DNA of 64,000 nt from Variovorax sp. PCZ-1 (GTDB taxonomy: Bacteria; Pseudomonadota; Gammaproteobacteria; Burkholderiales; Burkholderiaceae_C). Below are positions 4,272 through 62,439 of the stretch, one piece after another. Each line of letters begins with the position of its first letter. Positions within the stretch are counted from its first letter, which is position 1. The translations under genes were made by a program, and so were the position numbers. Below the pieces are notes generated by a model. It was given only the letters and a program-made list of their open reading frames with translations. It searched no databases and was not told where the DNA came from. The DNA lies in the NCBI RefSeq assembly GCF_018413605.1, contig NZ_JAHCDN010000001.1, positions 1,240,001 to 1,304,000 of the forward strand, written 5' to 3'.

Positions 4272-5015
4272 ATGAATGCACTTTTTTCTTCCTCTTCCAC
4301 TCGCCTGAAAAATGCTATTTTTTCGATAGCACTCTGCGCAGGTCTGATGCCGGCTACTGCCGTTTTTTCTCAAAATATTCGTATGGAAACACCTCAAAAC
4401 GTCGTCTCGCTTCAAGCTCAAGGCAGCCTCGAAGTACAGCAAGATCTGCTCACCATCAGTATGAACAGCACGAAAGACGGCTCAGATGCAGCTACAGTGC
4501 AAACCCAGCTCAAAGCCGCGCTCGATGCCGCGCTGACGGAAGCCAAAAAAGTCGCCCAACCCGGCCAGCTCGATGTGCGCACCGGGGCATTCTCGCTTTA
4601 CCCACGCTATGGGCGTGACGGCAAGATCAATGGCTGGCAGGGCACCACCGAGCTGGTGCTTGAAGGCCGCGATTTCGCTCGCATCAGCGCGCTGGCTGGC
4701 AAGATCAATACCCTGACTTTGGGCAATGTGAGCTTCGGGCTCTCGCGCGAAGCACGTGCTCGCGTGGAAGCCGAGGTGACGGCGCAGGCGATTGAGCGCT
4801 TCAAAGCCAAAGCGCAAGAGATCAGCAAAGGCTTTGGTTTTGGCGGCTACACGGTGCGTGAGGTGAATGTGCAGGCCAACGATCAAGGCTTTGCGCACCG
4901 TGGGCGCATGGAGATGATGCAGGCCAAATCGATGTCAGCTGACGCGGCAGTGCCTGTGGAAGCTGGGCGTAGCACGGTGGTGGTGACTGTGGCTGGCGCT
5001 GTGCAGATGAAGTGA
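4272..5015 (+). CDS. Secreted SIMPL-domain (DUF541) protein
   Basis: A 247-residue exported protein. Residues about 1-35 form a signal peptide ending near AVFSQ. The mature part follows the SIMPL plan: VVSLQAQGSLEVQQDLLTIS at the start (the usual sequence is 'sGeg.v...pD.a.i'), a central GWQGTTELVLEGRDFARIS, then LSREARARVEAEVTAQAIERFKAKA and a C-terminal STVVVTVAGAVQMK. SIMPL proteins are periplasmic or outer-membrane associated and their biochemistry is poorly defined. Odd point: codons 14-33, the signal-peptide core, coincide with a copy of the dispersed repeat (4312-4372). Confidence 0.85.
   Translation: MNALFSSSSTRLKNAIFSIALCAGLMPATAVFSQNIRMETPQNVVSLQAQGSLEVQQDLLTISMNSTKDGSDAATVQTQLKAALDAALTEAKKVAQPGQLDVRTGAFSLYPRYGRDGKINGWQGTTELVLEGRDFARISALAGKINTLTLGNVSFGLSREARARVEAEVTAQAIERFKAKAQEISKGFGFGGYTVREVNVQANDQGFAHRGRMEMMQAKSMSADAAVPVEAGRSTVVVTVAGAVQMK
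4312..4372 (+). repeat. Dispersed ~50-bp repeat, copy inside the SIMPL signal peptide
   Basis: Matches the family pattern: GATAGCACTCTGCGCAGG, then a degenerate TCTGATGCCGGC, then TACTGCCGTTTTTTCTCA. It is translated as SIALCAGLMPATAVFS, the same frame used by the copy at 29455-29510. Confidence 0.7.
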
Positions 5016-5036
5016 TTTTTTATGCTTTTTGAGCAA

Positions 5037-5083
5037 GTAGCCGGCATGATTATTGCGCAAAGTGCTATTGAATTAATAGTGCT
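5037..5083 (-). repeat. Dispersed ~50-bp repeat, intergenic copy
   Basis: On the minus strand it reads AATAGCACTTTGCGCAATAA followed by TCATGCCGGCTAC, fitting the family core. It lies 22 bp after the SIMPL stop codon. Confidence 0.65.
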
Positions 5084-7611: not shown

Positions 7612-7668
7612 ATGCTACCAAAATAGTAGCATTTCGCGCAGATTCTACGTCGGCTGACAGGCTAAAAC
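7612..7668 (+). repeat. Dispersed ~50-bp repeat, intergenic copy
   Basis: Contains TAGTAGCATTTCGCGCAGAT, then TCTACGTCGGC and a tail with AGGCTAAAAC. Its left end also forms a short hairpin, ATGCTAC-N7-GTAGCAT. It lies between two convergent genes. Confidence 0.7.
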
Positions 7669-13960: not shown

Positions 13961-13989
13961 AAAAAAGGCGCTACGAAAAACGTAGCGCC
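13961..13989 (-). terminator. Rho-independent terminator of the ggt gene
   Basis: GGCGCTACG (13967-13975) and CGTAGCGCC (13981-13989) form a 9-bp stem with an AAAAA loop. On the minus strand the stem is followed by six T (complement of 13961-13966). It lies 46 bp after the ggt stop codon. Confidence 0.85.
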
Positions 13990-14032
13990 TTGCGCAGATT
14001 CTACGCCGGCAAAGTGCCGAAAATGCTTAAAA
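13990..14032 (+). repeat. Dispersed ~50-bp repeat, intergenic copy
   Basis: TTGCGCAGATTCTACGCCGG, then CAAAGTGCCGAAAATGCTTAAAA. This is the core and tail of the family. The upstream half of the repeat seems to be replaced by, or merged with, the ggt terminator hairpin, which contains AACGTAGCGCC. Confidence 0.7.
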
Positions 14033-18646: not shown

Positions 18647-21424
18647 ATGCCTATGAATTCCTCACCAGAAAACCGCCTCCTCCTCGTAGATGGCTCGAGC
18701 TACCTTTATCGTGCCTTCCACGCCATGCCCGATCTGCGCGCTGTGCCCGGCGATCCGAGCAGCCCCGCCACGGGTGCGATTCGCGGCATGATCAATATGA
18801 TGGCTTCGCTGCGTACGCAGTTTCCGTCCATGTATGCCGTGTGTATTTTTGATGCCAGCGGCCCCACCTTCCGCGATGCGCTTTATCCCGAATACAAAGC
18901 CAATCGCTCGCCCATGCCCGATGATTTGCGCACCCAGATCGCGCCGATTCATGAGGTGATGCGCCTACAAGGCTGGCCAGTAGTGGCTGTTCCTGGCGTG
19001 GAGGCTGATGATGTGATCGGCACGATGGCGCGCATTGGCGCAGAGCAGGGCATGGAGGTCATCATCTCCAGTGGGGATAAAGACCTCTCTCAACTGGTGA
19101 ATGAGCACATCACCATCATCGACACGATGAATGGCAAAAAGCGCGATGTGGCGGGTGTGACCGCTGAGTTTGGCGTACCGCCCTCGCTCATGCTCGACTA
19201 TCAAAACCTCGTGGGCGATACGGTGGACAACGTACCCGGCGTGGAAAAAGTGGGGCCAAAAACGGCTGCGAAATGGCTCACCGAATTTGGATCGCTGGAA
19301 AATTTGCTGGCAAGAGCCGATGAGATCAAGGGCGTGGCTGGAGAGAATTTGCGCAAGGCGCGCGAGTGGCTGCCCAAAGGGCGTGAGCTGCTCAAGATCA
19401 AGACGGATTGTGATTTGGCAGGACATATTGACGGTCTACCTGCTATGAATTCAGTAGCTGTTCGCGCAGATGATACGGAGGCTTTGAGTACTTTTTATCT
19501 GAAATATGGCTTCAAGGGACTGGCTGCAAGCTTAGGTAAAAAATCCACTACACCTGCACCTGTGCAAAGCGTCATGGACGATTTGTTTGCAGATGCTGAG
19601 CCTGCAGTTTCGAAAGTCAGTGATAAGAAATACGACACGATTTTTACCTGGGAAGCATTTGATGCGTGGTTAGAAAAAATCAAAGCGGCCTCACTCACCG
19701 CACTCGACACAGAAACCAACTCCATCGACGAGATGCAAGCCCAGATCGTTGGCATCAGCTTCAGCATACAGCCCGGCGAGGCGGCCTACATTCCGCTGGC
19801 GCACAGCTACCCAGATGCGCCCGAGCAGTTGCCGCTCAATGAAGTGCTCGCCAAGCTCAAACCTTGGCTAGAAGACGCGAAATACAAAAAGCTCGGCCAA
19901 CACGTCAAGTACGACCGTCATGTGTTTGCTAACCACGGCATCGAAGTGCAGGGCTATGTGCACGACACGATGCTGCAAAGCTACGTGCTGGAAGTGCACA
20001 AACCCCATAACCTCACGAGTTTGGCTGAGCGCCATGTGGGGCGCAAAGGCATCAGCTATGAAGATTTGTGCGGCAAAGGCGCGCACCAAATCTCGTTTGC
20101 GCAAGTCGATGTGGCCAAGGCTTCTGAATACTCTTGCGAAGACTCTGATCAAACGCTGGATGTGCATCTCGCTCTTTGGCCAAAGCTGGAAGCCAACGAG
20201 AAGCTGCGCGGCATCTATGAACTTGAAATAGAAAGCTCAGAAAGCCTGTATCGCATCGAGCGCAACGGTGTGATGATCGACGCGCAGCAACTGGCCACGC
20301 AAAGCCATGAGCTGGGTCAGCGCATCATGCAGTTGGAAACGCAGGCGCATGATTTGGCCGGGCAGCCATTTAACCTCGCTTCGCCTAAGCAAATCGGAGA
20401 GATTTTCTTCACCAAGCTGGGTTTGCCAGTCATCAAGAAAACCGCCACTGGCGCGCCGAGCACCGATGAAGAGGTGCTAGAAAAACTCGCTGAAGACTAC
20501 CCGCTGCCCGCCAAAATCTTGGAGCATCGCGGCCTCTCCAAACTCAAGGGCACGTATACCGACAAGCTGGCTCAGCTCGCGCACCCACGCACAGGTCGCG
20601 TGCACACACATTACGCGCAAGCCGTGGCCGTCACAGGCCGCTTATCCAGCAACGATCCTAATTTACAAAACATCCCCGTCAAAACAGCTGAAGGCCGCCG
20701 CGTGCGCGAGGCTTTCGTCGCACCTGCTGGCTCGTTGATTGCCAGCGCTGATTATTCCCAAATTGAGCTGCGCATCATGGCGCATATCAGCGGCGATGAA
20801 GCGCTCATCAAAGCCTTCACCGATGGCATTGACGTTCACCGCGCTACAGCTGCTGAAGTGTTTGGCCTGCCCGCCAGCGAAGTCAGCAGCGAGCAGCGCC
20901 GCTATGCCAAGGTGATCAACTTCGGGCTCATCTATGGCATGAGCGCCTTCGGCTTGGCGCGAGCACTGAGCATCGACAACACCGCTGCGAAGAACTACAT
21001 CGAGCGATACTTTCAGCGCTTCGCAGGTGTGAAAACCTATATGGACGAAACGCGACTCGCCGCCAAGAGCAAAGGCTATGTAGAAACCGTGCTCGGCCGT
21101 CGCCTCTATCTTCCCGAAATCAACAGCCCCAACGGGCCACGCCGAGCTGGCGCAGAGCGTGCCGCGATCAACGCGCCCATGCAAGGTACAGCGGCTGATT
21201 TGATCAAACTTAGTATGAATGCTGTACAACGCGAGCTCGATACGAAAGCCTTGAAAACCAAGATGATCATGCAAGTGCACGACGAACTGGTGTTTGAAGT
21301 GCCTTCAGACGAACTCGATTGGCTCAAGGTAGAAATCCCCCGCATCATGGCCAGCGTGGCCCAGCTGAAAGTGCCTCTGGTGGCTGAAGTCGGGGTTGGC
21401 GAGAACTGGGATAAGGCGCACTAA
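18647..21424 (+). CDS. polA: DNA polymerase I
   Basis: 925 residues with all three domains. The 5'-3' exonuclease has LLLVDGSSYLYRAFHAMPDL at the start, VEADDVIGTMA and SGDKDLSQLV. The 3'-5' exonuclease begins near SLTALDTETNSIDEMQAQIV and keeps DTE, KYDRHVF and the later SCEDSDQT. The polymerase has motif A SADYSQIELRIMAHISGD, motif B RRYAKVINFGLIYGMSAFG and motif C MQVHDELVFEVP. The proofreading residues appear intact. It repairs DNA and processes Okazaki fragments. The ATG two codons later (18653) is an alternative start. Confidence 0.97.
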   Translation: MPMNSSPENRLLLVDGSSYLYRAFHAMPDLRAVPGDPSSPATGAIRGMINMMASLRTQFPSMYAVCIFDASGPTFRDALYPEYKANRSPMPDDLRTQIAPIHEVMRLQGWPVVAVPGVEADDVIGTMARIGAEQGMEVIISSGDKDLSQLVNEHITIIDTMNGKKRDVAGVTAEFGVPPSLMLDYQNLVGDTVDNVPGVEKVGPKTAAKWLTEFGSLENLLARADEIKGVAGENLRKAREWLPKGRELLKIKTDCDLAGHIDGLPAMNSVAVRADDTEALSTFYLKYGFKGLAASLGKKSTTPAPVQSVMDDLFADAEPAVSKVSDKKYDTIFTWEAFDAWLEKIKAASLTALDTETNSIDEMQAQIVGISFSIQPGEAAYIPLAHSYPDAPEQLPLNEVLAKLKPWLEDAKYKKLGQHVKYDRHVFANHGIEVQGYVHDTMLQSYVLEVHKPHNLTSLAERHVGRKGISYEDLCGKGAHQISFAQVDVAKASEYSCEDSDQTLDVHLALWPKLEANEKLRGIYELEIESSESLYRIERNGVMIDAQQLATQSHELGQRIMQLETQAHDLAGQPFNLASPKQIGEIFFTKLGLPVIKKTATGAPSTDEEVLEKLAEDYPLPAKILEHRGLSKLKGTYTDKLAQLAHPRTGRVHTHYAQAVAVTGRLSSNDPNLQNIPVKTAEGRRVREAFVAPAGSLIASADYSQIELRIMAHISGDEALIKAFTDGIDVHRATAAEVFGLPASEVSSEQRRYAKVINFGLIYGMSAFGLARALSIDNTAAKNYIERYFQRFAGVKTYMDETRLAAKSKGYVETVLGRRLYLPEINSPNGPRRAGAERAAINAPMQGTAADLIKLSMNAVQRELDTKALKTKMIMQVHDELVFEVPSDELDWLKVEIPRIMASVAQLKVPLVAEVGVGENWDKAH

Positions 21425-21935: not shown

Positions 21936-23300
21936 ATGCTGAATCGATTTTTGCAAAAAGCGCCTGAAAATTTCATAGCGCGGCAAGATATTCCTCAGGC
22001 GCGTGCTGAGTTGAAAGCAGGGCGACGCGGATTTATTTCCTCTGCATTTGCTACTGCTTTTGTAGCTGCTGGCGCAGCATCTACGGGCGCTAGAGCCCAA
22101 TCTAATCCAGTATCTGGCCAAGGCGATCCAAATATCTTGGAGCTGCCTGCACACAGCAAAGCCCTTGGCCAAGCCGTGGCAGCGCGTGGCTACGGCGTGC
22201 CGAGCGCCTATGAGAAAAACCTGCAGCGCCGCGAAAGCCCAGGGCTCACGCGCGTGAGTCAAGCCAGCGTGAGCTTCACGCCGCTGCAAGGGCTCTTTGG
22301 CATCATCACGCCCAGCGGCCTGCATTTTGAGCGGCATCATCAAGGCTGGTGGGATATTGAGCCGGACAAACATCGATTCATGGTGAATGGCAGCGATCAG
22401 ACGATGCTGAAAACGCCGATGGTCTTCACGATGGATGACCTGATGCGCTTGCCCAGCGTGAGCCGGATTCATTTCATCGAATGCGGTGCGAACACCGGCA
22501 TGGAGTGGGGCAATGTGGCTGTGCCGACGGTGCAATACACGCACGGCATGATTTCTTGCAGCGAGTTCACTGGCGTGCCGCTACGCTTGCTGCTGGAGAT
22601 GTGTGGTGCAGATTTCAAGCGCGGAAAATTCGTGCTGGCTGAAGGTGCTGATGGCTCGGGCATGACGCGTACGATCCCCATAAGCCTCGTGATGAACGAC
22701 GAAGTGCTGGTAGCTTATGGACAAAACGGTGAAATGCTGCGGCCTGAAAATGGCTACCCGCTGCGCTTGGTCGTCCCCGGTGCGCAGGGCGTGAGCTGGG
22801 TGAAATACCTGCGTCGCATTGAGCTGGGCGATCAGCCTTATGGCGCGAAGGATGAGGTGCTGCATTATGTGGATTTGATGCCCGATGGCACGCATCGGCA
22901 GTATTCGAGCATTCAAGAAGTGAAATCTGTGATCACATCGCCCAGTGGCGGGCAGGTGCTGCTGGATAAAGGCACGCATCAGATCACGGGCCTCGCTTGG
23001 AGCGGGCGAGGGAAGATTCGCAAAGTGGATGTGAGTGTGGATGGTGGGCGCAACTGGATGCCCGCGCAGATGCAAACGCCCGTGCTCTCCAAATGCCTGA
23101 CGCGCTTTAACTTGCCCTGGAATTGGAATGGCAAGCCCGCTTTGCTCATGAGCCGAGCGACCGATGAGACTGGGCATATCCAACCCACGTATTCTGAGCT
23201 GCGCAAAGTGCGTGGGGCTAGGAGCATTTATCACAACAACGCGATCCAAACATGGTTGATCGAAGAAAGCGGCGAGGTGAAAAATGTTCAGCTTTCTTGA
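21936..23300 (+). CDS. soxC: Sulfane dehydrogenase SoxC (molybdopterin subunit)
   Basis: The ATG at 21936 is 2 bp after the regulator stop. 454 residues: an N-terminal Tat signal (GRRGFISSAFATAFVAAGAA, cleaved near ARA-Q), the sulfite-oxidase-type Mo-cofactor domain with the Mo-ligand cysteine in IHFIECGANTGMEWG (C183), and the C-terminal dimerisation domain (GLAWSGRGKIRKVDVSVDGG). With SoxD it oxidises the sulfane sulfur bound to SoxY in the periplasm, allowing full oxidation of thiosulfate without sulfur globules. Its signal-peptide codons (22049-22100) resemble the dispersed repeat. The gene overlaps soxD by 17 bp. Confidence 0.94.
   Translation: MLNRFLQKAPENFIARQDIPQARAELKAGRRGFISSAFATAFVAAGAASTGARAQSNPVSGQGDPNILELPAHSKALGQAVAARGYGVPSAYEKNLQRRESPGLTRVSQASVSFTPLQGLFGIITPSGLHFERHHQGWWDIEPDKHRFMVNGSDQTMLKTPMVFTMDDLMRLPSVSRIHFIECGANTGMEWGNVAVPTVQYTHGMISCSEFTGVPLRLLLEMCGADFKRGKFVLAEGADGSGMTRTIPISLVMNDEVLVAYGQNGEMLRPENGYPLRLVVPGAQGVSWVKYLRRIELGDQPYGAKDEVLHYVDLMPDGTHRQYSSIQEVKSVITSPSGGQVLLDKGTHQITGLAWSGRGKIRKVDVSVDGGRNWMPAQMQTPVLSKCLTRFNLPWNWNGKPALLMSRATDETGHIQPTYSELRKVRGARSIYHNNAIQTWLIEESGEVKNVQLS
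22049..22100 (+). repeat. Possible dispersed-repeat copy inside the soxC signal peptide (degenerate)
   Basis: GCTACTGCTTTTGTAGCTGC, then TGGCGCAGCATCTACGGGCG and CTAGAGCCCAA resemble a related form of the repeat (compare 35147-35196). It is translated as ATAFVAAGAASTGARA. It is more degenerate than the other copies, so chance similarity in an Ala-rich signal is possible. Confidence 0.4.
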
Positions 23301-24576
23301 AAATCTTGCGTTATTGGCGAACCAACCAATAGAACGCAAAATTCGCAAAATAAACGTAAAATTCGCAGAAGATTTTGAATTAAAACTTCATTTTCTTTTT
23401 TTGCGTCTTTTGCGTTCCCTCTGTGTCTTTTGCGTTCTCATTTCCAGTATCACGATAACCTCAGCCCAAACAAAGTTCGAAGGCATAGGAAGAGCAGCCA
23501 CGCCAGCCGAGGTCAAAGCTTGGGATATTGATGTTCGACCCGATTTCAAAGGCTTGCCGCCCGGCAAAGGCTCAGTCATTCAAGGCGAGAAAATTTGGGA
23601 AGCGCAATGCGCTGGTTGCCATGGCAGTTTTGGCGAGAGCAATGAAGTATTCACGCCCATCGCTGGCAACACGACCGCGAAAGACATTGAGACTGGCCGC
23701 GTTGCTTCACTCCTGCCCGGTGCCAACACCCCTCAGCGCACGACGCTGATGAAGCTCTCTAGCATTTCCACGCTATGGGATTACGTCAACCGCGCTATGC
23801 CTTGGACTGCACCTAAATCCATGACGGCAGATGAGGTCTACGCAGTCACGGCTTATATGCTGAATTTAGGCAATATCGTGCCCGGTGACTTTACCCTGAG
23901 CGATCAAAACATCCGTGACGTGCAAAACCGCTTGCCCAATCGAAACGGCAAAACTACCGCTCATGCGATGTGGCCTGGCAATGAGCTAGGTGGCATGAAA
24001 AAGCCCGATGTGCAAGGCTCGGCCTGCATGAAAGATTGCAAGCAAGAGCCCAAGGTGGCTAGTTTCTTGCCAGCCCATGCGCGCGATGCGCATGGCAATT
24101 TGGCCGAGCAATCTCGCGGTTTGGGTGGTTCGCGCGGTGCGGATACCACCCAGCCCGCCGCAGTATCTGCAGCGCTGGTTTCTAAGCCAAATCAGGCACT
24201 CACTGGCAAGGAATCTGCGCTGAGTGCTACGAATTCAGGAGCGTCTGTTGCGGCTGCTCCCGTCGTAGCAACGCCGAACACGATGCCTTCATCACCCGCT
24301 GCGTCTGCCGCGCTCAAGTCTGCTGATGTGATGCCCACGTTGCAAAAATATGCCTGCATCGCATGCCACGGCATGGACAACAAACTCGTGGGGCCGAGCT
24401 TCAAAGAAATCGTCGCCAAGCAGGGCAAGCGCGTCGATGCGCAAGCCTATCTCGCTGCAAAAATCAAAAATGGCGGGCAGGGCGTGTATGGACAAATCCC
24501 CATGCCAGCGCAGAGCATCAGCGAGGCCGAGAGCTCACGGGTCGCACAATGGTTGGTACAAGGGGCTCAAAGGTGA
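23284..24576 (+). CDS. soxD: SoxD, di-heme c-type cytochrome subunit of sulfane dehydrogenase
   Basis: 430 residues with two heme c sites: CAGCH (109-113) and CIACH (358-362). Between the heme domains lies an Ala/Ser/Pro-rich linker (about 285-345). The start at 23284 has GAGGTG upstream, and no closer in-frame start was found. As a result the signal-peptide core FLRLLRSLCVFCVLISSITI lies unusually deep (about 40-58), after about 35 polar residues. This stretch is encoded by a palindromic repeat (23331-23438) that seems to have been inserted at the front of the gene. It accepts electrons from SoxC and passes them to the respiratory chain. Confidence 0.9.
   Translation: MFSFLENLALLANQPIERKIRKINVKFAEDFELKLHFLFLRLLRSLCVFCVLISSITITSAQTKFEGIGRAATPAEVKAWDIDVRPDFKGLPPGKGSVIQGEKIWEAQCAGCHGSFGESNEVFTPIAGNTTAKDIETGRVASLLPGANTPQRTTLMKLSSISTLWDYVNRAMPWTAPKSMTADEVYAVTAYMLNLGNIVPGDFTLSDQNIRDVQNRLPNRNGKTTAHAMWPGNELGGMKKPDVQGSACMKDCKQEPKVASFLPAHARDAHGNLAEQSRGLGGSRGADTTQPAAVSAALVSKPNQALTGKESALSATNSGASVAAAPVVATPNTMPSSPAASAALKSADVMPTLQKYACIACHGMDNKLVGPSFKEIVAKQGKRVDAQAYLAAKIKNGGQGVYGQIPMPAQSISEAESSRVAQWLVQGAQR
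23331..23438. repeat. GCGTTTT-type palindromic repeat inside soxD
   Basis: The left arm AGAACGCAAAATTCGCAAAA (23331-23350) is inverted relative to TTGCGTCTTTTGCGTT (23401-23416) and TCTTTTGCGTTCT (23426-23438). It is the same element as at 25564-25660, and here it encodes the soxD N-terminus and signal peptide. Confidence 0.75.
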
Positions 24577-25563: not shown

Positions 25564-25660
25564 AGAACGCAAAAGGCGCAAAACCACGCAAACAGCGCAA
25601 AATTTAATTCATTGAATTCTCTTTTGCGTCTTCTGTGTGGTTTTGCGTCTTTTGCGTTCT
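25564..25660. repeat. GCGTTTT-type palindromic repeat between soxZ and soxA
   Basis: Arms 25564-25587 and 25637-25660 are inverted copies matching at 23 of 24 positions (left begins AGAACGCAAAAGGCGCAAAA). The centre is AT-rich with further internal inverted segments. The RNA could form a long hairpin just before soxA. There is no T-run typical of a terminator. Confidence 0.8.
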
Positions 25661-25684: not shown

Positions 25685-26509
25685 TTGAAGAAAAAAACAC
25701 GATTCGCCGGCGTATCTATTGCGCTAGCAGCTATATTTTTTGTAGCATCCCCTGCGCAAGCGCAGCAAAAATCTGCGCAAGATGCGATCAACGAATACCG
25801 CCAATCCTTGCAAGATGGCAACCCTGCTGACTTAAATGCAGCTCGCGGCGAAGGCATTTGGAATGCCAAGCGCGGCGGTAAATCGCTTGCCGAAAGCTGC
25901 GATCTGGGCTTAGGTATTGGCAAAGTCAAAGGCGCAGTGGCACAACTGCCCAAGTACTTTGGCGATGTGAAAAAAGTGATGGATATAGAGTCCCGCCTCG
26001 TGCATTGCATGGTGACTTTCCAGGGTGCGAAGCGGGAAGACTTCACGCCGCGTACGGTATTCAGCGGCGAAGGCCAGCGCGCCACGATGATTGAAGACCT
26101 CGTAGCCTTTGTGTACGACGAATCACGCGGCGAGACGATCAAAGTGCCGCAAGGCCATGCGCTGGAGAAAGCTTCTTTTGAGCGCGGCAAGCAAGCCTTC
26201 TATTTCAAAGGCGGTCCGTACGATTTTTCTTGCGCCGCTTGCCACAGTGAAGATGGCAAGCGCATCCGCCTGCAAGATCTGCCTAACCTCACCAAAACCG
26301 CCCCGGCTCAAGCCGCCTTCAGCCAATGGCCTGCCTATCGCGTGAGCCAAGGCGCGGTGCGCACCATGCAATGGCGCTTGTACGATTGCTTCCGCCAGCA
26401 GCGCTTTCCTGAGCTGCAATACCTCTCGCAAACCTCGGTCGATCTCATCACCTTCATGGGCGTGAACGCCAATGGCGGCAAGATGGCTGCACCTGCTATT
26501 AAGCGTTAA
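25685..26509 (+). CDS. soxA: SoxA, heme-containing subunit of L-cysteine S-thiosulfotransferase
   Basis: The best start is the TTG at 25685 (GGAG at 25675-25678, 6-nt spacing). It directly begins a signal peptide, MKKKTRFAGVSIALAAIFFV, cleaved near AQA-Q; the frame upstream runs into the palindromic repeat. 274 residues. One heme site, CAACH (183-187), is present. The first heme site of two-heme SoxA proteins is replaced by cysteines C72 and C108, a known one-heme form. The active-site cysteine is C235 in YDCFRQQRFPE, which ligates heme and carries persulfide. With SoxX it joins thiosulfate to SoxY. Signal-peptide codons coincide with a dispersed repeat (25702-25746). Confidence 0.93.
   Translation: MKKKTRFAGVSIALAAIFFVASPAQAQQKSAQDAINEYRQSLQDGNPADLNAARGEGIWNAKRGGKSLAESCDLGLGIGKVKGAVAQLPKYFGDVKKVMDIESRLVHCMVTFQGAKREDFTPRTVFSGEGQRATMIEDLVAFVYDESRGETIKVPQGHALEKASFERGKQAFYFKGGPYDFSCAACHSEDGKRIRLQDLPNLTKTAPAQAAFSQWPAYRVSQGAVRTMQWRLYDCFRQQRFPELQYLSQTSVDLITFMGVNANGGKMAAPAIKR
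25702..25746 (-). repeat. Dispersed ~50-bp repeat inside the soxA signal peptide
   Basis: ATTCGCCGGCGTATCTATTG, then CGCTAGCAGCTATA is the family core in reverse. It is translated as FAGVSIALAA, aligning frame for frame with IAGVFTARAA in soxX. Confidence 0.75.
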
Positions 26510-26523
26510 AACGGGAGATTTCA

Positions 26524-27189
26524 ATGAAAAAACAGCATATCGCCGGCGTATTTACTGCGCGAGCAGCTATCACTTTAGTAGCAACTACTGCGACCTTACT
26601 TATTGCAGGCTGCACCACTTTGCCCAGTGCAGAAGAGTCCCTCGCCGCCATCAAAAGCAGCTTCAGCGAGCGCGGCATCGCCAAACTCGATCGCCTCGAT
26701 CAAACCGAAATCCAGCGCCTCTGCTCCGAAGCCAACATGACCGGCAAAGACATCGACAAGAAAACCGCCGATAAAATCCAGACCGCGCTCTACGACAAAA
26801 TCCCGTATCCGAAAGACGGTTTCATCGGTGATTGGCGTGAAGGCGAGCGCATCGCGCAAAACGGCCGAGGCATGCAATTCACAGATGCAGCTGGCGTGCC
26901 CAATGGCGCCAACTGCTACGCCTGCCACCAAATCAGCCCGCAAGAGATCAGCTACGGCAACCAAGGCCCCAGCCTCTTGAAATACGGCGCGATCCGTCAA
27001 GTCAAAGATGCCAACAGCAAAGAAGCCGAGCCCATCGTGAAATACACATGGGCCCGCATCTGGAACACCCACAGCGTCAACCTCTGCAGCAACATGCCCC
27101 GCTTCGGCGATGCAGGCATCTTGACCGAGCAACAGATCAAGCATGTGATGGCGCTATTGTTGTCGCCTGATTCACCAGTTAATAAGTGA
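26524..27189 (+). CDS. soxX: SoxX, c-type cytochrome subunit of L-cysteine S-thiosulfotransferase (lipoprotein form)
   Basis: 221 residues. The N-terminus ends in a lipobox LLIAGC (C30), so this SoxX is probably membrane-anchored. A helical region of about 80 residues is followed by the heme domain with CYACH (131-135), GPSLLKYG and the methionine ligand in LCSNMPRFG. SoxXA starts the cycle by coupling thiosulfate to SoxY. The first codons (26535-26584) are a dispersed-repeat copy, giving IAGVFTARAAITLVATTATL as the hydrophobic core. The gene lies 14 bp after soxA and overlaps the next gene by 4 bp. Confidence 0.93.
   Translation: MKKQHIAGVFTARAAITLVATTATLLIAGCTTLPSAEESLAAIKSSFSERGIAKLDRLDQTEIQRLCSEANMTGKDIDKKTADKIQTALYDKIPYPKDGFIGDWREGERIAQNGRGMQFTDAAGVPNGANCYACHQISPQEISYGNQGPSLLKYGAIRQVKDANSKEAEPIVKYTWARIWNTHSVNLCSNMPRFGDAGILTEQQIKHVMALLLSPDSPVNK
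26535..26584 (-). repeat. Dispersed ~50-bp repeat inside the soxX signal peptide
   Basis: CATATCGCCGGCGTATTTAC, then TGCGCGAGCAGCTATCAC is the family core in reverse, followed by TTTAGTAGCA. It forms the h-region of the SoxX lipoprotein signal. Confidence 0.8.
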
Positions 27190-29377: not shown

Positions 29378-29450
29378 AACTGTATTGATTGAACGCACTC
29401 AAACGCTAGGTCGTAAGCGTATCCTGCGTTTTCTTGAGAGGGATATCACT

Positions 29451-29765
29451 ATGAATTCAATAGCACTCCGCGCAGATTCTATGCCGGCGATATGCCGTTT
29501 TTCTCATAAATTATTGGCTTTAATGAGCATTGCAGTCCTGCTCACCGCCTGCGCGGGTGTGAGCCCAAGCATTGGCATCAGCTTGCCCGTCGGCAAAATA
29601 GGTGGCGTAGGTGTAAGCATCGGTGGTGGCGGTACAGTCTCTGGCTCAGTAGGCGTTGGCGCAGGTGGCGGCTCAGTGAGCGTGGGCGCTTCTGGGCAAT
29701 TGCCTAAACCTCCCGAGACAAAGCCTGAAGTTGAGCCCGAGAAAAAAGAAGAGAAGAAGCCCTGA
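29451..29765 (+). CDS. Small Gly-rich lipoprotein downstream of soxB
   Basis: The ATG at 29451 has GAGAGGG upstream, and an in-frame ATG at 29523 is a shorter alternative. The hydrophobic stretch LLALMSIAVLLTAC is a lipobox. The mature part is a Gly/Val/Ser repeat region (GVSIGGGGTVSGSVGVGAGG) and a Pro/Glu/Lys tail ending in KKEEKKP. The first 20 codons are a dispersed-repeat copy. No known function; such low-complexity lipoproteins are common in Burkholderiales. It may be cotranscribed with sox but is not a known Sox component. Confidence 0.65.
   Translation: MNSIALRADSMPAICRFSHKLLALMSIAVLLTACAGVSPSIGISLPVGKIGGVGVSIGGGGTVSGSVGVGAGGGSVSVGASGQLPKPPETKPEVEPEKKEEKKP
29455..29510 (+). repeat. 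Dispersed ~50-bp repeat at the 5' end of the lipoprotein gene
   Basis: CAATAGCACTCCGCGCAGAT, then TCTATGCCGGCGATATGCCG and TTTTTCTCATAAA. It is translated as SIALRADSMPAICRFS, the same frame as in the SIMPL gene (SIALCAGLMPATAVFS). Confidence 0.8.
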
Positions 29766-29806
29766 GCTTTTCTTAACTTGTTTGTTGAGTTAGCGCGCTT
29801 CGCGTC

Positions 29807-29977
29807 TCACACCACCCGCTCGCCTGCCATGTGACGTGCCCGAAAAAGCCGAGGCCTTTCTTCGTGAGGCGCTCTTGCCCGCAAGCGACGAGCTGCGATC
29901 TTTTGTAGCGATGATTGCATGGTTGGCCGCGCCCGACCAGCGAAAGGCTTCGTTTTTTCAGACCCATCACGTAGCGG
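29807..29977 (+). repeat. Left 171-bp inverted repeat of an accessory cassette
   Basis: Pairs as an inverted copy with 30467-30637 over the full length at roughly 85-90% identity by eye. It contains GACGTGCCCGAAAAAGCCGA and TTCGTTTTTTCAGACCCATC. On the plus strand it stays open as a frame including VPEKAEAFLREALLPASDEL, and the mirror frame of the right copy is open too. Confidence 0.85.
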
Positions 29978-29995
29978 GTGGATATTCTTGGCACT

Positions 29996-30343: not shown

Positions 30344-30466
30344 TGGCCGCTCCTGCTAAGACATATCCCAGCCAGAAATGGCGTGGAGAAGAAGTTTGAT
30401 AGTGCGTAAGATTGATTTATAACCCAATCTTCCCGGAGCGGGGAACGATGCGTCAACAACCTAAAT

Positions 30467-30637
30467 CCGCTACGTGATGGGTCTGAAAAAACGAAGCCTT
30501 TCTTTGGTCGGGCGCGGCAAACCATCTCATCATTGCTAAAAATGGTGGGAGCTCGTCGCTTGCGGGCAAGAGCGCTACACGAAGAAAGGCCTCGGCTTTT
30601 TCGGGCACGTCACGTGGCAGGTGAGCGGGTGGTGTGA
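30467..30637 (-). repeat. Right 171-bp inverted repeat of an accessory cassette
   Basis: Inverted partner of 29807-29977. Differences cluster in the middle (positions corresponding to about 29893-29922 on the left). The 30344-30466 stretch between the hypothetical gene and this arm shows no gene. Confidence 0.85.
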
Positions 30638-30665
30638 AACGGTTGAGTACTAGCAATACGATGAG

Positions 30666-35146: not shown

Positions 35147-35196
35147 AGCTATATATTTGATAGCTGCTTGCGCAATAAATACGCCGGCTAGAGACC
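35147..35196 (+). repeat. Dispersed ~50-bp repeat, intergenic copy
   Basis: AGCTATATATTTGATAGCTG, then CTTGCGCAATAAATACGCCG and GCTAGAG. A family copy with the variant start GATAGCTGC. It lies upstream of the trypsin-like gene, in the 680-bp gap that runs to lepA. Confidence 0.8.
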
Positions 35197-39668: not shown

Positions 39669-39691
39669 AGCCCTCTACCGAAGCAAGATCT

Positions 39692-39742
39692 TTGCTACTG
39701 ATTTAATAGCGTTGGGTGTAGTATCCATCCCGGCTACTTGCC
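39692..39742 (+). repeat. Degenerate dispersed repeat between rnc and era
   Basis: GCTACTGATTTAATAGCGTT, then GGGTGTAGTATCCATCCCGG and CTACTTGCC. It has the flanks and spacing of the family but a diverged core. Confidence 0.45.
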
Positions 39743-41648: not shown

Positions 41649-41712
41649 TACTATTAATATGGTAGCACTCTGCGCAGTATTTACGCCGCCAAAGTGCTGA
41701 AAAGGCTTAAAA
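41649..41712 (+). repeat. Dispersed ~50-bp repeat, intergenic copy
   Basis: TACTATTAATATGGTAGCAC, then TCTGCGCAGTATTTACGCCG and CCAAAGTGCTGAAAAGGCTT. A near-consensus copy. It fills the recO-pdxJ gap almost completely and ends 3 bp before the pdxJ start codon, so it also holds the ribosome-binding region. Confidence 0.85.
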
Positions 41713-43432: not shown

Positions 43433-45666
43433 GCGCCAAGCTTTCTCGCCGCGGCTTTCTTGTCGCCTCTGGGATCACGGCCACCTTCCTTGTGGGCTGC
43501 TCGAGCATCCCAGCGATCCCCAAGCGCCCCGCGCCAACGGCAGAAGCTGCGATGGGCTGGATCACGCTCTTGCCCTCTGGCCAATGGCGTTTGTTCAGTC
43601 CGCGCATGGAGATGGGGCAAAACATTTTGAGCAGCTTGCGCGAAGTGGCCGCGCTGGAGCTGGGTGTGGATGCTGCTCATATTCAGGTGCAATTGCCGAG
43701 CACGAAAGACATTGCCTTGGTGAAAGCCACAGTGGGCAGCGATAGCTTGCGCGAGCTGTGCCTGCCGCTCGCGCGGGCTTGCCATGCGCTGCGAGTTGAG
43801 CTGATGCGCCGCGCTGCTTTGCGCTTGCCCAATGCTTCTGCGGATAAGCTACAGATTCAAGATGATGCTGTGCAAGATGGCGCTGGCGCGCGTGTGAGCT
43901 TGAGCGAGCTGGCCTTGCCTGCTCTTGCAATCGAAGCGAAAGACACGCCTGTCGAGCAATTGCGGTTTTTCAAAACACCGCTGTCTCAAGCCAGAAGCTC
44001 CAAGCCTTTTGCACAAACTGAAGCCATCGCGCGCGGGCAAGCTCTGTATGCGAGCGATGTGCGCTTGCCCGGCATGTTGTATGCCATTGTGCTGCGCTCG
44101 CCTTGGGCAGACCGTGAGCTTGCGCCGAGCAGCTTGGCAAGCTGGAATGAGGCCGCCGTGCGCGCCGTGCCGGGCTTTCACACAATAGTGCAGCATCCCT
44201 CGTTGGCCGGGCCTGCGCTGGTGGCCAAGCGCATGAGCGCGGTGGAGCTGATGCGCAGCGCAGCCGATGCCAAATGGATCGAGCCTGCTTCAGCTACCGC
44301 TGATCCCATGAAAATCGTGGATGTAGACAAGACTTTAGCTTCGGGCAGCTTCACCAAAAGCAAAGGCAGCGTGGAGCAGGGCACATGGGCGGTAGACATG
44401 CGACTGGATGTACCGCTGGCAAGTCACGCCTTCATCGAGCCGCGCTGCGCTGTGGCGCAGCCGCAAGAGGGCGGCGGCATGAAGCTGTGGTGTGGAACGC
44501 AAGATGTGTTTTATGTGCGCGATGTGGTGCGCCGTGATTTGAATGTGGCGGCAGAAAAAGTCGAAGTGCAGGCTATGCGCATCGGCGGTGGCTTTGGCGG
44601 TAAAACCATTGCTAGCGTAGAGCGTGAAGCCGCGCTGATTGCCAAAGCAGTAGGCCAAGCGGTGAAAGTCCAATGGTCTCGCGCTGATGAATTTCAAGCG
44701 GGCTTTCATCGCCAGCCTGCCTCGCAGCGCATTCGCGCGCGCTTGGATGCGCAAGGCATGATCAGCGATTGGCAGCACAGCCTTTCCACATCGCATGTGC
44801 TGTTCACCAATGCCGTTGCGCCGCCATGGATGCAGCGCATCACCAACAGCTTCATCGGCGATGATGGTGCGGCGCGTGGCCAAGCGCCTGTTTATGGCTT
44901 CAAACGCCAGCGCTTGGATATACAACTCACACGATTGCCAGTGCTCACAGGCCCATGGCGCGGCCTGGGTGCGGGGCCTAACGTGCTCGCGATTGAAATG
45001 GCGATGGATGCAGCTGCTCTTGCTGCAAAAAAAGATCCCGTGGACTTCAGATTGGCGCACTTGAAAGCCAGCGCAGCAGACAATCCGGCAGGCGATGCAA
45101 TGCGCATCGCTCAATGCTTAGAAAAAGCAGTACGTTTATCGAAGAACAAGCCAATCGCCGTCATAGAATCTGCGCGAGCAGCTCCTGAAAATATAGCAAG
45201 GCGCATCGTGACCCAAGGCGTGGCCTGCGGTGCTTACAAAGCCATGGCCTACGCGGCAGCAGTGGCTGAAGTGGAGGTGGTGCTAGGTGCCGGAAACAAA
45301 CTGCGGAGCATTCGTGTGAGAAAAATCTGGTGCACCCATGATTGCGGCCGCATGATTGATGCGCAAGGCGTTCTCGCGCAGGTGCAAGGCAATCTGGTGT
45401 GGACGATTGGCATGGTGCTCACCGAGCAACTCAATGCACCACGCGGCACAGCTGAAGCCTTGAATTTTTCCAGCTACAGCATTCCTCGCCTGACGGATAC
45501 ACCACCGATGGAGATCGAATTGATTGAATCTAACGCTTCGCCCACAGGCGCAGGCGAGACGGCGATGGTGGCCGGTGCGGGAGCGATTGCCAATGCCGTG
45601 GTGCGAGCGCTGCGGGAGGCTGGTTTGCCTGTGCCGCAAAGTGTGCCCTTCAAAATCTCTGCTTAA
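43429..45666 (+). CDS. Molybdopterin-dependent hydroxylase, large subunit (IorB type)
   Basis: 745 residues. The N-terminus is a Tat signal with a possible lipid-accepting cysteine ([20 protein letters not shown], then C), so the complex is probably exported. Molybdopterin-binding landmarks include [47 protein letters not shown], and near the end [20 protein letters not shown] with the catalytic glutamate in GAGE. The substrate (an N-heterocycle or aldehyde) cannot be read from sequence. Codons for [15 protein letters not shown] (45155-45197) coincide with a dispersed-repeat copy. Confidence 0.9.
45155..45197 (-). repeat. Dispersed ~50-bp repeat inside the IorB-type gene
   Basis: ATCGCCGTCATAGAATCTGC, then GCGAGCAGCTCCTGAAAATA aligns with the copy at 62381-62439 (CGCCGGCATAGAATCTGCGC). 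It is carried in the coding sequence without breaking the frame. Confidence 0.65.
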
Positions 45667-46620: not shown

Positions 46621-46659
46621 AGGCTTCGCCTACTGCGGGCTCAACACAGAAGCAAATTC

Positions 46660-46720
46660 ACTATTAAATTAATAGCATTCTGCGCAATAAGTACGCCGGC
46701 GATAAGGCTAAAACGCTTAT
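46660..46720 (+). repeat. Dispersed ~50-bp repeat, intergenic copy
   Basis: ACTATTAAATTAATAGCATT, then CTGCGCAATAAGTACGCCGG and CGATAAGGCTAAAACGCTTA. A well-preserved copy upstream of the patatin gene. Confidence 0.85.
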
Positions 46721-51671: not shown

Positions 51672-51726
51672 TACTATCTATTTGATAGCATTTCGCGCAG
51701 TATATATGCCGGCAAAATGCTGTTTT
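51672..51726 (+). repeat. Dispersed ~50-bp repeat, intergenic copy
   Basis: ACTATCTATTTGATAGCATT, then TCGCGCAGTATATATGCCGG and CAAAATGC. A near-consensus copy, 7 bp upstream of the divergent deaminase start. Confidence 0.85.
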
Positions 51727-58734: not shown

Positions 58735-61700
58735 ATGAATTCACAAACAACTCCTTCCCGCTGGCAATTCTGGATCGACCGTGGCGGCACATTCACCGAT
58801 ATCGTGGGCAAGCGGCCTGATGGCTCGCTGGTGACGCACAAGCTGCTTTCTGAAAACCCGGAGCAATACAAAGATGCTGCGGTGGCAGGGATTCGGCATC
58901 TGCTGGGCTTGAAGCCCGGCGAGCTGGTGCGCTCTGAGTTGGTCGAATGCGTGAAGATGGGTACGACTGTAGCCACGAATGCGCTGCTGGAGCGCAAAGG
59001 CGAGCCGACGCTGCTGGTGACGACGCTTGGCTTTCGAGATGCGCTGCGTATCGCGTATCAGAATCGCCCACGCTTATTTGATCGCAACATCATCTTGCCT
59101 GAGCTGCTGTATAGCTCGGTGATCGAGGCGCAAGAGCGTGTGGGTGCAGATGGCAGTATCGTTACGCCACTCGATGAGTCGCTATTAAAAAAGGAGCTGC
59201 TTGCGCAGTATTCTTCTGGGCTACGCTCGGTTTCTATTGTATTTATGCACGGCTACCGCTATACAGCGCATGAGCTGGCAGCAGAGAGGATTGCTAAAGA
59301 AGTCGGCTTTACCCAGATCAGTGTGAGCCACAAAACTTCGCCAATGATGAAGTTTGTGAGCCGTGGGGATACGACTGTCGTTGATGCTTATCTTTCGCCG
59401 ATCTTGAGCCGATACGTGAGCCAAGTTGCGAGCGAGCTGCCTGGCGTGAAGTTGTTTTTCATGCAGTCCTCGGGCGGGCTCACGGATGCACGCGCTTTCC
59501 AAGGCAAGGATGCGATTCTTTCCGGCCCCGCTGGCGGCATCGTCGGCATGGCACGGACTGCGAAGATTGCAGACTTCGACAAAGTGATCGGCTTCGACAT
59601 GGGTGGCACATCGACCGATGTGAGCCATTTCGCGGGCGAATTCGAGCGTGAGTTTGAAACGCGAGTGGCGGGCGTGCGTATGCGTGCGCCGATGATGAGC
59701 ATCCATACTGTGGCAGCAGGTGGTGGCTCGATTTTGGAATTCGATGGCTCGCGCTTTCGCGTGGGCCCCGAGAGCGCGGGCGCGAATCCTGGCCCTGCGA
59801 GCTATCGCCGTGGCGGGCCTTTGGCCGTGACGGATGCGAACGTGATGGTGGGCAAGATTCAGCCGCGCCATTTTCCGAAAGTGTTTGGCGCTGCGGCGAA
59901 TGAGGCGTTGAGCTATGAAGCGGCCTTAGAAAAATTTAATGAAATTTCTGTGAAGACCGGGCGGCAGCCTGAGGTGGTGGCCGAAGGCTTTATCAATATC
60001 GCTGTGCAGCAAATGGCCAATGCGATCAAGAAGATTTCTGTCGCGCGCGGTTATGACGTGACGCGCTACACCCTGCAATGCTTTGGAGGCGCGGGTGGGC
60101 AGCATGCTTGCCTTGTGGCTGATGCTCTGGGCATGACGTGTGTGTTCGTTCATCCGTATGCGGGCGTGCTTTCTGCTTATGGCATGGGTTTGGCTGATCA
60201 GAGCGTGATCCGTGAGCAGGCTGTAGAGCTTCTGCTTGCCAATGATGCGCTGGCAGAGGTGTCAGCTAAGTTAGATGCGCTTGCGCAAACAGCCAGCAAA
60301 GAACTCAAGAGCCAAGAGATGGGGCAGGGCGCAGTGCAAGTGCATCGCCGAGTGCATGTGAAGTATCAAGGCACAGATACCGCCCTGGTCGTTCCCTTTG
60401 GAGATTTAGCAAGCATTGAAGCGGCTTTTGAGAAAGCCTACAAGCAGCGCTTTGCTTTCCTCATGCAAGGTAAAGCCTTTGTCGTGGAAGCCGTCTCAGT
60501 AGAGGCCGTGATCAGTGGCGATGCGCCCGCAGAAAAGCGCCATGCGCTGCACGAGCCTCGCGCTGTGCCCGCGCGCGAGACAATCAAGATGTTCTCTGGC
60601 GGCCAATGGCATGAAGCCTTGCTCGTGGTGCGCGAAGATCTCCGCGCAGGCGATGTGATTCCCGGCCCCGCCATCATTGCTGAGAAAAATGCCACGACGA
60701 TTGTAGAGCCCGGTTGGGAAGCCAATCTCACCGCTTTAGATCATCTCGTCCTTGAGCGCCGTGCGCAGCGTGCGATTAAATTCGCAGCAGGCACAACCGT
60801 CGATCCTGTATTGCTCGAAGTCTTCAATAACCTCTTCATGAACATCGCCGAGCAAATGGGCTTGCAGCTGCAAAACACCGCTTACTCGGTCAACATCAAA
60901 GAACGCCTCGATTTCTCTTGCGCGTTGTTTGATGCAGAAGGCAATTTGATCGCCAACGCACCCCATATGCCCGTTCACTTGGGCTCGATGGGCGAGAGCA
61001 TCAAAACCGTGGTCAATGAAAACCGCGCCACGATGCAGCCGGGCAATGTGTATGTGCTCAACGATCCATATCACGGCGGCACGCATTTGCCCGATGTGAC
61101 GGTGATCACGCCAGTGTATGTAGGTGATTCAAAATCTCCGCTCTTCTACGTTGGTTCACGCGGCCACCAAGCCGATATTGGCGGCACGACGCCCGGCTCC
61201 ATGCCACCGTTTTCCACGCGCATCGAAGAAGAGGGCGTGCAGATCAATAATTTCTTGCTCGTTGAGCGGGGCGTGTTGCGCGAGAAGGAAATGATTGCGC
61301 TGCTGGAAAGCGGGGAATATCCCAGCCGCAATCCCTATCAAAACATGGCTGACCTGAAAGCGCAGATTGCCGCCAACGAAAAAGGCGTACAAGAGCTGCG
61401 TAAGATGGTCGAGCAGTTTGGCCTCGATGTGGTGCAGGCTTATATGGGGCATGTGCAAGATAACGCGGAGGAATCCGTGCGGCGCGCCTTGGTCACACTC
61501 TCATCTCGCCTGAAAGACAGCTCGTTTACGCTGCCGCTAGATAACGGCGCGCAAATCAAAGTAGCCATTCGTGTGGATGGAAAAAACCGCAGTGCCGAAA
61601 TTGATTTCACCGGCACTTCCGCGCAGCAAACCAACAACTTCAACGCCCCCAAAGCCGTGTGTATGGCCGCTGTGCTCTACGTCTTCCGCACTTTGGTGGA

Positions 61701-62380: not shown

Positions 62381-62439
62381 GGAAAATAGCACTTCGCCGG
62401 CATAGAATCTGCGCGTAGTGCTACTATTTTTATAGTGCC
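62381..62439 (-). repeat. Dispersed ~50-bp repeat, intergenic copy
   Basis: AATAGCACTTCGCCGGCATA, then GAATCTGCGCGTAGTGCTAC and TATTTTTATAGTGCC: the family core in reverse, with inverted ends (AGCACT and AGTGCT). It lies just after the 5-oxoprolinase stop. The stretch 62440-62568 shows no gene. Confidence 0.85.

Follow-up and report, generated by a model that had tools for sequence, protein, structure and literature searches.

A dispersed repeat at signal-peptide codons of exported proteins in Variovorax sp. PCZ-1, with related versions in other genera

Repeat copies in the sox region

We analysed a stretch of 64,000 nt (C1:1240001-1304000, hereafter the window) of the 3.54-Mb genome of Variovorax sp. 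PCZ-1 (G000), in which the starts of several genes, including soxA and soxX, overlap copies of a dispersed repeat of about 49 nt. The gene for SoxA (25685-26509, TTG start) carries a copy on the plus strand over the codons of the h-region of its signal peptide (25699..25747, 27.6 bits), and that for SoxX (26524-27189, ATG start) carries a plus-strand copy in a lipoprotein-type signal (26535..26583, 43.0 bits). As the original prediction had stated, SoxA (MKKKTRFAGVSIALAAIFFVASPAQAQQ, first codon read as M) and SoxX (MKKQHIAGVFTARAAITLVA...LIAGC) read the repeat in one frame. Two other genes of the plus strand read its opposite strand, again both in one frame. In the SIMPL gene (4272-5015) a minus-strand copy forms the signal peptide (4313..4361, 34.3 bits), and in the lipoprotein gene after soxB (29451-29765) one provides the start codon and the n-region (29447..29495, 55.4 bits). 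The prediction of reverse copies at these two starts therefore stood, but not that of a lipoprotein h-region inside the repeat, as the hydrophobic core LLALMSIAVLLTAC lies 3' of it. All four copies are found at the same places in the sister genome G113; the SoxA and SoxX copies were matched in both G113 and L001, the SIMPL copy in G113 and the lipoprotein copy in L001, a locus of a Comamonadaceae metagenome-assembled genome (MAG) that we treated as one genome with G113.

Two other candidates were rejected. The signal of soxC had been proposed as a more diverged copy (22048..22085, minus strand), and it scored 12.9 bits (E 0.004) with our first profile and was absent at E ≤ 0.001 with the refined one; soxC has at that place a signal resembling those of the twin-arginine translocation (Tat) type. 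The copy 5' of a trypsin-like protease gene (35147..35195, minus strand, 35.3 bits, common to G113) is intergenic and lies upstream of the signal-like start that the protease (35285) itself has.

Copy number and controls

Copies were identified by repeat finding and with nhmmer profiles of 49 to 54 nt. The refined profile was built on copies of the window and of 40 evenly spaced 20-kb stretches, together an 864-kb sample of the genome, and was then run on the same sequences, with the reversed sequence as a control, which was clean. The repeat is partly palindromic, and its consensus, oriented GCCGGC...GCTAT, is GCATTTCGCCGGCATAGAATCTGCGCAAAGTGCTATTAAATTAATAGCA; the motif holds 50-56 bits of information over 49 nt. 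At E ≤ 0.001 the window contains 16 copies. The 864-kb sample gave 241 matches (none in the reversed sequence), which extrapolates to about 990 copies in the genome. A strict pattern matched the whole genome 360 times, with no strand bias (187 forward, 173 reverse), and its reversed form not once. The repeat thus exceeds chance genome-wide, and the dispersed repeat is real at the signal-peptide places given above.

The repeat is frequent within the genus. The strict pattern was run on 200 genomes of the family: it matched 360 times in G000 and 285 times in G113, the two that belong to the genus, and at most once in each of the other 198. A third congener, G200, has 38 copies in 150 kb. No Rfam family matched the window at gathering thresholds, and one repeat copy queried against a plasmid collection gave no match.

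These counts bear on the idea that signal peptides rich in Ala, Leu and Ile mimic the repeat by codon composition. The right half of the repeat, GCNCTAGCAGCTATT, reads ALAAI, which is typical of signal peptides, and some native codons do match the repeat (e.g., those of TINAIA in Cca). Such convergence is nevertheless very improbable: the scores of the 16 exported-protein copies range from 27.6 to 55.4 bits across 49 nt, against zero matches in the reversed control, the match extends to both strands and to the conserved GCCGGC and TGCGC blocks, and the 198 other genomes, which presumably encode signal peptides too, have at most one match each.

Enrichment in signal peptides across the genome

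Half of the 241 copies (122) are intergenic. The other 119 overlap a called coding sequence (CDS), 86 of them inside the gene, 24 at its 5' end and 9 at its 3' end. Coding copies lie mostly in two phase-2 frames, one per strand (51 of 66 CDS-overlapping rows, in open frames), and this preference also holds outside gene 5' ends (66 of 95 rows in those two frames). At the 5' ends, 23 of the 24 copies are in phase 2, the exception being at the edge of a stretch.

We scored these genes with a signal-peptide predictor used under lax and stricter rules; it was home-made, as were the gene caller and the choice of starts. A charged n-region, a hydrophobic core and a cleavage site were predicted in 18 of the 24 genes with a 5'-end copy under the lax rules (234 of 810 genes overall). 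Under the stricter ones they were predicted in 15 of the 24, compared with 121 of 810 overall (Fisher P = 7e-8, odds ratio 10.7). The congener G113 gave 9 of 13 against 97 of 328 under the lax rules. The original prediction that signal peptides make use of the repeat in either orientation was therefore borne out, and the repeat-bearing N-termini are predicted to direct export. From protein family and N-terminal sequence, 16 of the 24 hosts read as exported proteins or lipoproteins: SoxA, SoxX, SIMPL, the lipoprotein after soxB, LolA, LolB, BamB (PQQ_2), PCuAC, DUF1775, TctC, a GspD-like secretin, DUF547, DUF4124, an aminopeptidase (PF10023), a tannase and Peptidase_S11. The remaining eight are, by family scan, HisD, NusB, DNA ligase, TsaD and two permeases, plus the stretch-edge case and one more.

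The repeat is about ten times denser in signal-peptide codons than in other coding DNA. The first 30 codons of genes with a strictly predicted signal peptide carry 1.38 copies per kb (15 of 121 genes), a density like that of intergenic DNA (0.99 per kb; 122 copies, 123 kb); the 5' ends of other genes carry 0.145 per kb (9 of 689 genes), and other coding DNA 0.138 per kb. Hydrophobicity is higher in the signal-peptide copies (7 sense, 11 antisense) than in copies read in the same frame in other CDS (P = 1e-4 sense, 4e-4 antisense) and than in stop-free translated intergenic copies (P = 4e-4 sense, 0.024 antisense). The usual change replaces the charged consensus ADSMP by AVFMP, AVFLP or AGFMP.

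The repeat might instead be a functional hairpin, i.e., a terminator or RNA-stability element under selection, similar to repetitive extragenic palindromic (REP) sequences, of which the signal-peptide copies are an overflow. Many intergenic copies have a stop codon no more than tens of nt away, convergent contexts outnumber divergent ones (15 vs 3 among the first 124 copies), and three of seven folded copies had z below -2. Yet the other four had z above -2, compensatory changes were not clearly visible in the right hairpin, and the 119 copies in CDS do not fit a hairpin of this kind, which makes this account quite improbable. We rejected a structural RNA (mixed folds, no clear covariation) and also a REP system with its associated tyrosine transposase (RAYT): REP sequences are extragenic, half of the copies here are not, and the best repeat match in the 3.3-kb locus of the single Y1 transposase gene found (PF01797; L037 1159-1866, minus strand) had E 0.096.

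Sharing of sites within the genus

Most copies in alignable DNA are shared by congeners. Of the 20 copies of G000 that lie in blocks aligned with G113, 18 are matched by a copy at the same position there, and the other two align with a sub-threshold sequence. Across the three congeners 45 of 50 directed comparisons were shared; a site can enter these comparisons once from either genome, and its flanks had to be alignable, so that fast-changing intergenic copies are under-represented. The other five differed in length by 0 nt in four cases and by 21 nt in one, and none of the 50 revealed an element-sized empty site. The core of shared copies is better conserved than its surroundings, both in intergenic DNA (n=6; core 89% identical, spacer 64%, flanks 53%) and in genes (n=16; core 87.5%, spacer 72.5%, flanks 68%), which argues that the core of the motif is held and not merely inherited.

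It had been proposed that the repeat is mobile. An ordinary mobile palindromic element, such as a miniature inverted-repeat transposable element (MITE) or one akin to the Rickettsia palindromic elements (RPE), still jumping and recently landed in signal-peptide codons, would account for the dispersal within and between genes, the two orientations, the in-frame fusions and the extra codons described below. Some copies form imperfect stem-loops, without clear covariation of the right stem. Two intergenic copies of the window have no repeat at their place in G113, where the region is not clearly alignable: one upstream of a patatin-like gene (46659..46707, minus strand, 41.2 bits) and one upstream of an amidohydrolase gene (51672..51720, minus strand, 48.1 bits). 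Recent jumps remain improbable given the shared sites and the lack of empty ones among the 50 comparisons, and given that sites are occupied in the same orientation in another genus, by a different version (that of lolA in other genera). Moreover, the 3.3-kb locus of the only Y1 transposase has no repeat at E ≤ 0.001.

Versions of the repeat in other genera

In G010, a genome of another genus whose PurL is 70% identical, we found a repeat of related sequence, AAAATGGCCTCTAGCGCTTGTCGGGCAAGCGCTAGCAGCTATTAAATTAATAGC, that differs in its left half, with 166 copies in 800 kb (one in the reversed control). Patterns for the right half matched 16 of 60 genomes of the family, and the count of the AAGCGC version varied sharply with the genus: 436 in G015, 196 in G010, 139 in G004, 27 in G003 and 4 in G000 (0 to 3 with the reversed patterns). 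G010 is the one outgroup genus that was sampled in depth. From 171 coding copies offered we obtained 27 pairs with G010, several of them sharing a gene; most copies lacked an orthologue in the 800-kb sample, and orthologues that were less than 45% identical, or whose alignment missed the copy, were dropped. At eight of the 27 sites, in 6 genes, G010 holds its own version at the orthologous place, always in the same orientation relative to the gene, as compared with none of 346 control windows taken from these alignments (P = 3e-10). The copy in Cca scores 55.3 bits with the profile of its own genus and 3.8-3.9 with the other one, and the G010 copy scores 15.5 with our profile and 35.2 with its own. 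At LolA the scores (our profile/G010 profile) are 37.7/15.6 in G000, 35.8/15.7 in G113 and 26.8/3.3 in G200, and they are reversed in G003 (7.8/25.7), G004 (7.8/23.8) and G010 (5.3/21.1); LolA of G006 and of G015 had no profile match.

A gene of 1,103 aa, which we take to be recC (L053 8043-11351), has three repeat copies, and two of these sites carry the G010 version in the orthologue of G010 (L166).

As the original prediction would have it, the 20 SoxA orthologues compared from other genera differ in their signal-peptide codons, with a conserved mature start in the closer ones, and when 36 loci were scanned with the first profile, L001 alone had the repeat over soxA. At SoxX, related sequence is weak in L002, L003 and L004, and the site is only weakly shared across genera: the Polaromonas MAG L002 scored 13.1 bits with the G010 profile and 11.0 with ours, L003 18.5 with the first profile and at most 4.3 with refined ones, and L004 at most 5.4. 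In G200, whose genome is 76% complete, we retrieved repeat matches and not the SoxA/SoxX region. Two MAGs among these loci, titled Klebsiella pneumoniae (L020) and Bordetella parapertussis (L026), have sox genes resembling those of betaproteobacterial MAGs, and their titles look wrong.

Another dispersed repeat, TTTTGCGTCTT...TTTTGCGT, is found 5' of soxA (25592-25650) and within the predicted hydrophobic N-terminus of SoxD, FLRLLRSLCVFCVLISS (23408-23435). A loose pattern matched it 27 times in the 864 kb (once when reversed), 9 times in the G113 sample and never in that of G010; a single-sequence nhmmer search returned only the self-match.

Biased uptake of self-DNA followed by recombination might drive sites towards a consensus, with signal peptides being the most tolerant coding sites, as for the DNA uptake sequences (DUS) and uptake signal sequences (USS) of other bacteria. 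The high density without strand bias, the presence of genus-specific versions at orthologous sites, the absence of element-sized indels among congeners, and the better conservation of the core than of its flanks all fit such a motif. A ComEC-family gene was found in all four genomes searched, which is unspecific since 10 of 14 control genomes have one too. We regard this explanation as unlikely, if deserving some weight, because a motif of about 50 nt and 50-56 bits is far longer than known uptake motifs and because of the extra codons described next.

Extra codons at repeat sites

Compared with their orthologues in G010, proteins show a net gain of more than two residues at 17 of the 27 repeat sites, a loss at 2 and neither at 8. 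The 346 control windows gave 23, 16 and 307, respectively (P = 4e-12), and even poorly conserved control windows had fewer gains (12 of 59; P = 2e-4 vs repeat sites). In the same kind of test for Haemophilus USS, gaps occurred in 24% of the surrounding alignments, which was interpreted as no insertion (PMC1626085). The net extra codons at our copies thus suggest an origin by insertion, unlike that of DNA-uptake sequences.

Cca illustrates this. The loop after RRDLTINAIA is short in 16 motif-less genomes (G005, G007, G011, G013 and all 12 genomes of other families compared), and it is longer, with motif-like sequence inside, in G000, G113, G002, G003, G004, G006, G010, G012, G014 and G015. The linker of PurL is longer in the genus than in most relatives, and those of G009 (L116) and G209 (L119) are long too. 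Of the copies in LeuRS compared with solved structures, one weak copy is ungapped and one adjoins a short gain; in structure searches with PurL and PolA, the repeat region did not appear in the alignment parts inspected.

Origin and maintenance of the repeat

We consider it likely that the repeat is the genus version of a family-wide dispersed, partly palindromic sequence family of about 50 nt, which was inserted in ancestors and has been kept in the register of each genus. The sharing of sites within the genus and between genera indicates that the hits are not recent jumps, and the comparisons of protein length suggest that copies probably began as insertions. Since then they have probably been overwritten where they stood, giving the genus dialects. 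Copies would have entered ancestral genomes where extra or changed sequence was tolerated. A signal peptide would be such a place, as it demands no more than a charged start, a stretch that is hydrophobic and rich in Ala, and a cleavage site. The hydrophobic stretch could come from either of two frames of the repeat (xIAGVxxALAAIxxVA on one strand, SIALxAGFMPAIxAFS on the other), so that an inserted copy could replace the old signal at little cost and might then be tuned to a hydrophobic variant. A sequence-specific process would keep the copies near the current consensus of the genome, e.g., gene conversion among the copies, biased uptake of self-DNA or selection through a DNA-binding factor. 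The proposal that the repeat was recruited for export because both strands encode a usable hydrophobic frame fits these data, but a filter for permissive sites explains the density without recruitment.

Several observations weigh against this account. Net gains vary, mostly from 4 to 14 aa, and do not equal one repeat. Eight of the 27 sites show no change of length and two show a loss; the copy inside polA, for example (19441..19489, minus strand, in the opposite orientation, 27.9 bits), is ungapped against both G113, where it is below threshold, and G010. The Cca loops of G001, G008 and G009 are longer without a detectable motif, hence length alone is no proof of a repeat. We found no filled and empty pair of sites with clean boundaries or a target duplication, so that the case for insertion is one from protein length. 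On the side of export, the predictor and the gene caller were our own, and two permeases and a DNA ligase are among the lax positives. Of the 74 copies in the first 400 kb of G010, only 2 lie at gene 5' ends (both in signal peptides, one per orientation), and the link with signal peptides may be weaker in that genus. The window copies at 46659 and 51672 point to some turnover, bearing in mind that these stretches align unclearly with G113. The dialects are also less distinct in some genomes. With our profile and that of G010, respectively, Cca scores 25.7/19.2 in G002, 24.5/17.1 in G014, 17.1/12.1 in G006 and 10.1/10.5 in G012, and LolA 9.9/16.1 in G002, 3.6/11.8 in G012 and 8.9/4.4 in G014. 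Hence G002, G012 and G014 fit neither profile clearly at these two sites, and the same can be said of SoxX in L002. The main alternative to insertion in ancestors followed by rewriting is that the copies shared across genera might stem from recurrent, independent insertion into common hot spots.

A bolder form of the ancestral-insertion account is that the family-wide motif is overwritten in place, i.e., that orthologous coding copies older than the split of the genera now match the consensus of their own genus, in the same orientation, through a drive or conversion that rewrites coding DNA, with signal peptides as its densest coding home. We put this forward tentatively, with somewhat more doubt than confidence. 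If true, it would be a new kind of dialect system beyond those of Neisseriaceae and Pasteurellaceae, one that moulds the signals by which essential envelope proteins are exported. The data suggest that export signals tolerate, and sometimes consist of, repetitive DNA that differs by genus. Dispersed repeats would then regularly provide bacteria with working parts of proteins, and signal peptides would be the coding DNA that takes up repeats almost as freely as intergenic DNA does. It also poses the puzzle of how some 1,000 short copies are held in a genus dialect at old sites, even inside cca and lolA, and warns that signal-peptide sequences may be poor phylogenetic characters in this group.

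Relation to known repeats

We compared the repeat with parts of the published descriptions of similar systems. RPE (Ogata et al. 2000) are likewise small palindromic repeats found in intergenic DNA and fused in frame inside conserved proteins (as described in PMC2229807), and here too we observed in-frame extra sequence in conserved protein genes (66 open-frame CDS rows; gains at 17 of 27 sites). They are described as Rickettsia-specific and 105-146 bp long (PMC2229807), whereas the present repeat has 49-54 nt, is concentrated in signal peptides and has genus versions at orthologous sites; we set the two apart by length only. The nearest precedent for a role in signal peptides, in the parts of these reports used here, is the Yersinia YPAL/RU-2 repeat, which forms part of the signal peptide of YPO1552 (PMC2759123, PMC2229807). 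That case concerns one putative protein (PMC2759123), as compared with 16 exported proteins or lipoproteins, in both orientations, in a quarter of one genome.

The repeat resembles the DUS of Neisseriaceae (PMC3630211) and the USS of Pasteurellaceae (PMC1626085, PMC2346458) in its hundreds to thousands of intragenic and intergenic copies, lineage dialects and gene-orientation preference, and the bias of the latter towards gene ends (PMC1626085, PMC2346458) is also similar. The lineage dialects come without strand bias here as well. In contrast, DUS and USS are 9-12 bp long and USS were shown not to be insertions (PMC1626085), while our repeat has about 50 nt instead of a short core and extra codons instead of an origin by substitution.

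For Acidovorax ebreus and Polaromonas naphthalenivorans, pairs of spaced motifs were reported, without explanation, as potential novel motifs, and Rhodoferax ferrireducens had the most pairs, 140 (PMC5217627). One of the motifs, GCTTAT(N)5AAGCG, with 114 mostly intergenic copies (PMC5217627), fits copies of G010 (e.g., one in L155) and, judging from this match, probably belongs to the same family. Unlike here, the sections consulted of that report give no link with signal peptides, no comparison of orthologous sites and no genus versions. The beta-proteobacterial repeat elements (BRE) are also betaproteobacterial repeats and usually intergenic with some copies in coding sequences, and they have about 90 bp (partial ones 40-60) and at most 29 copies (PMC3110155); we distinguish our repeat from them by description only. 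Our searches of the open-licence PMC literature listed no report of the repeat as a signal peptide and none joining the Yersinia and motif-pair precedents.

Other copies and repeats in the window

Among the remaining intergenic copies, two follow a stop codon closely: one 18 nt past that of SIMPL (5033..5081, plus strand, 41.6 bits, common to G113) and one 19 nt past that of an oxoprolinase gene (62389..62437, plus strand, 46.9 bits). A minus-strand copy at 13969..14017 (40.9 bits, common to G113) has a right half that forms a strong, terminator-like hairpin followed by T (fold z -5.98). Further minus-strand copies lie at 7613..7661 (38.7 bits) and in the gap between recO and pdxJ (41649..41697, 43.5 bits, common to G113). 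Within genes, we found plus-strand copies in soxD (24195..24243, 30.0 bits, with a sub-threshold counterpart in G113) and in a molybdopterin-binding oxidoreductase gene (45150..45198, 39.8 bits), and a weak minus-strand copy in a hydantoinase/oxoprolinase gene (59180..59228, 22.0 bits, common to G113). A degenerate copy (39691..39741, minus strand, 13.2 bits with the first profile) has a strong counterpart in G113 (46.4 bits).

Downstream of the lipoprotein gene lies a 188-nt inverted repeat (29803-29990 and 30454-30641, 88% complementary). It looks like a separate inverted-repeat element, and many related stretches are found elsewhere in G113.

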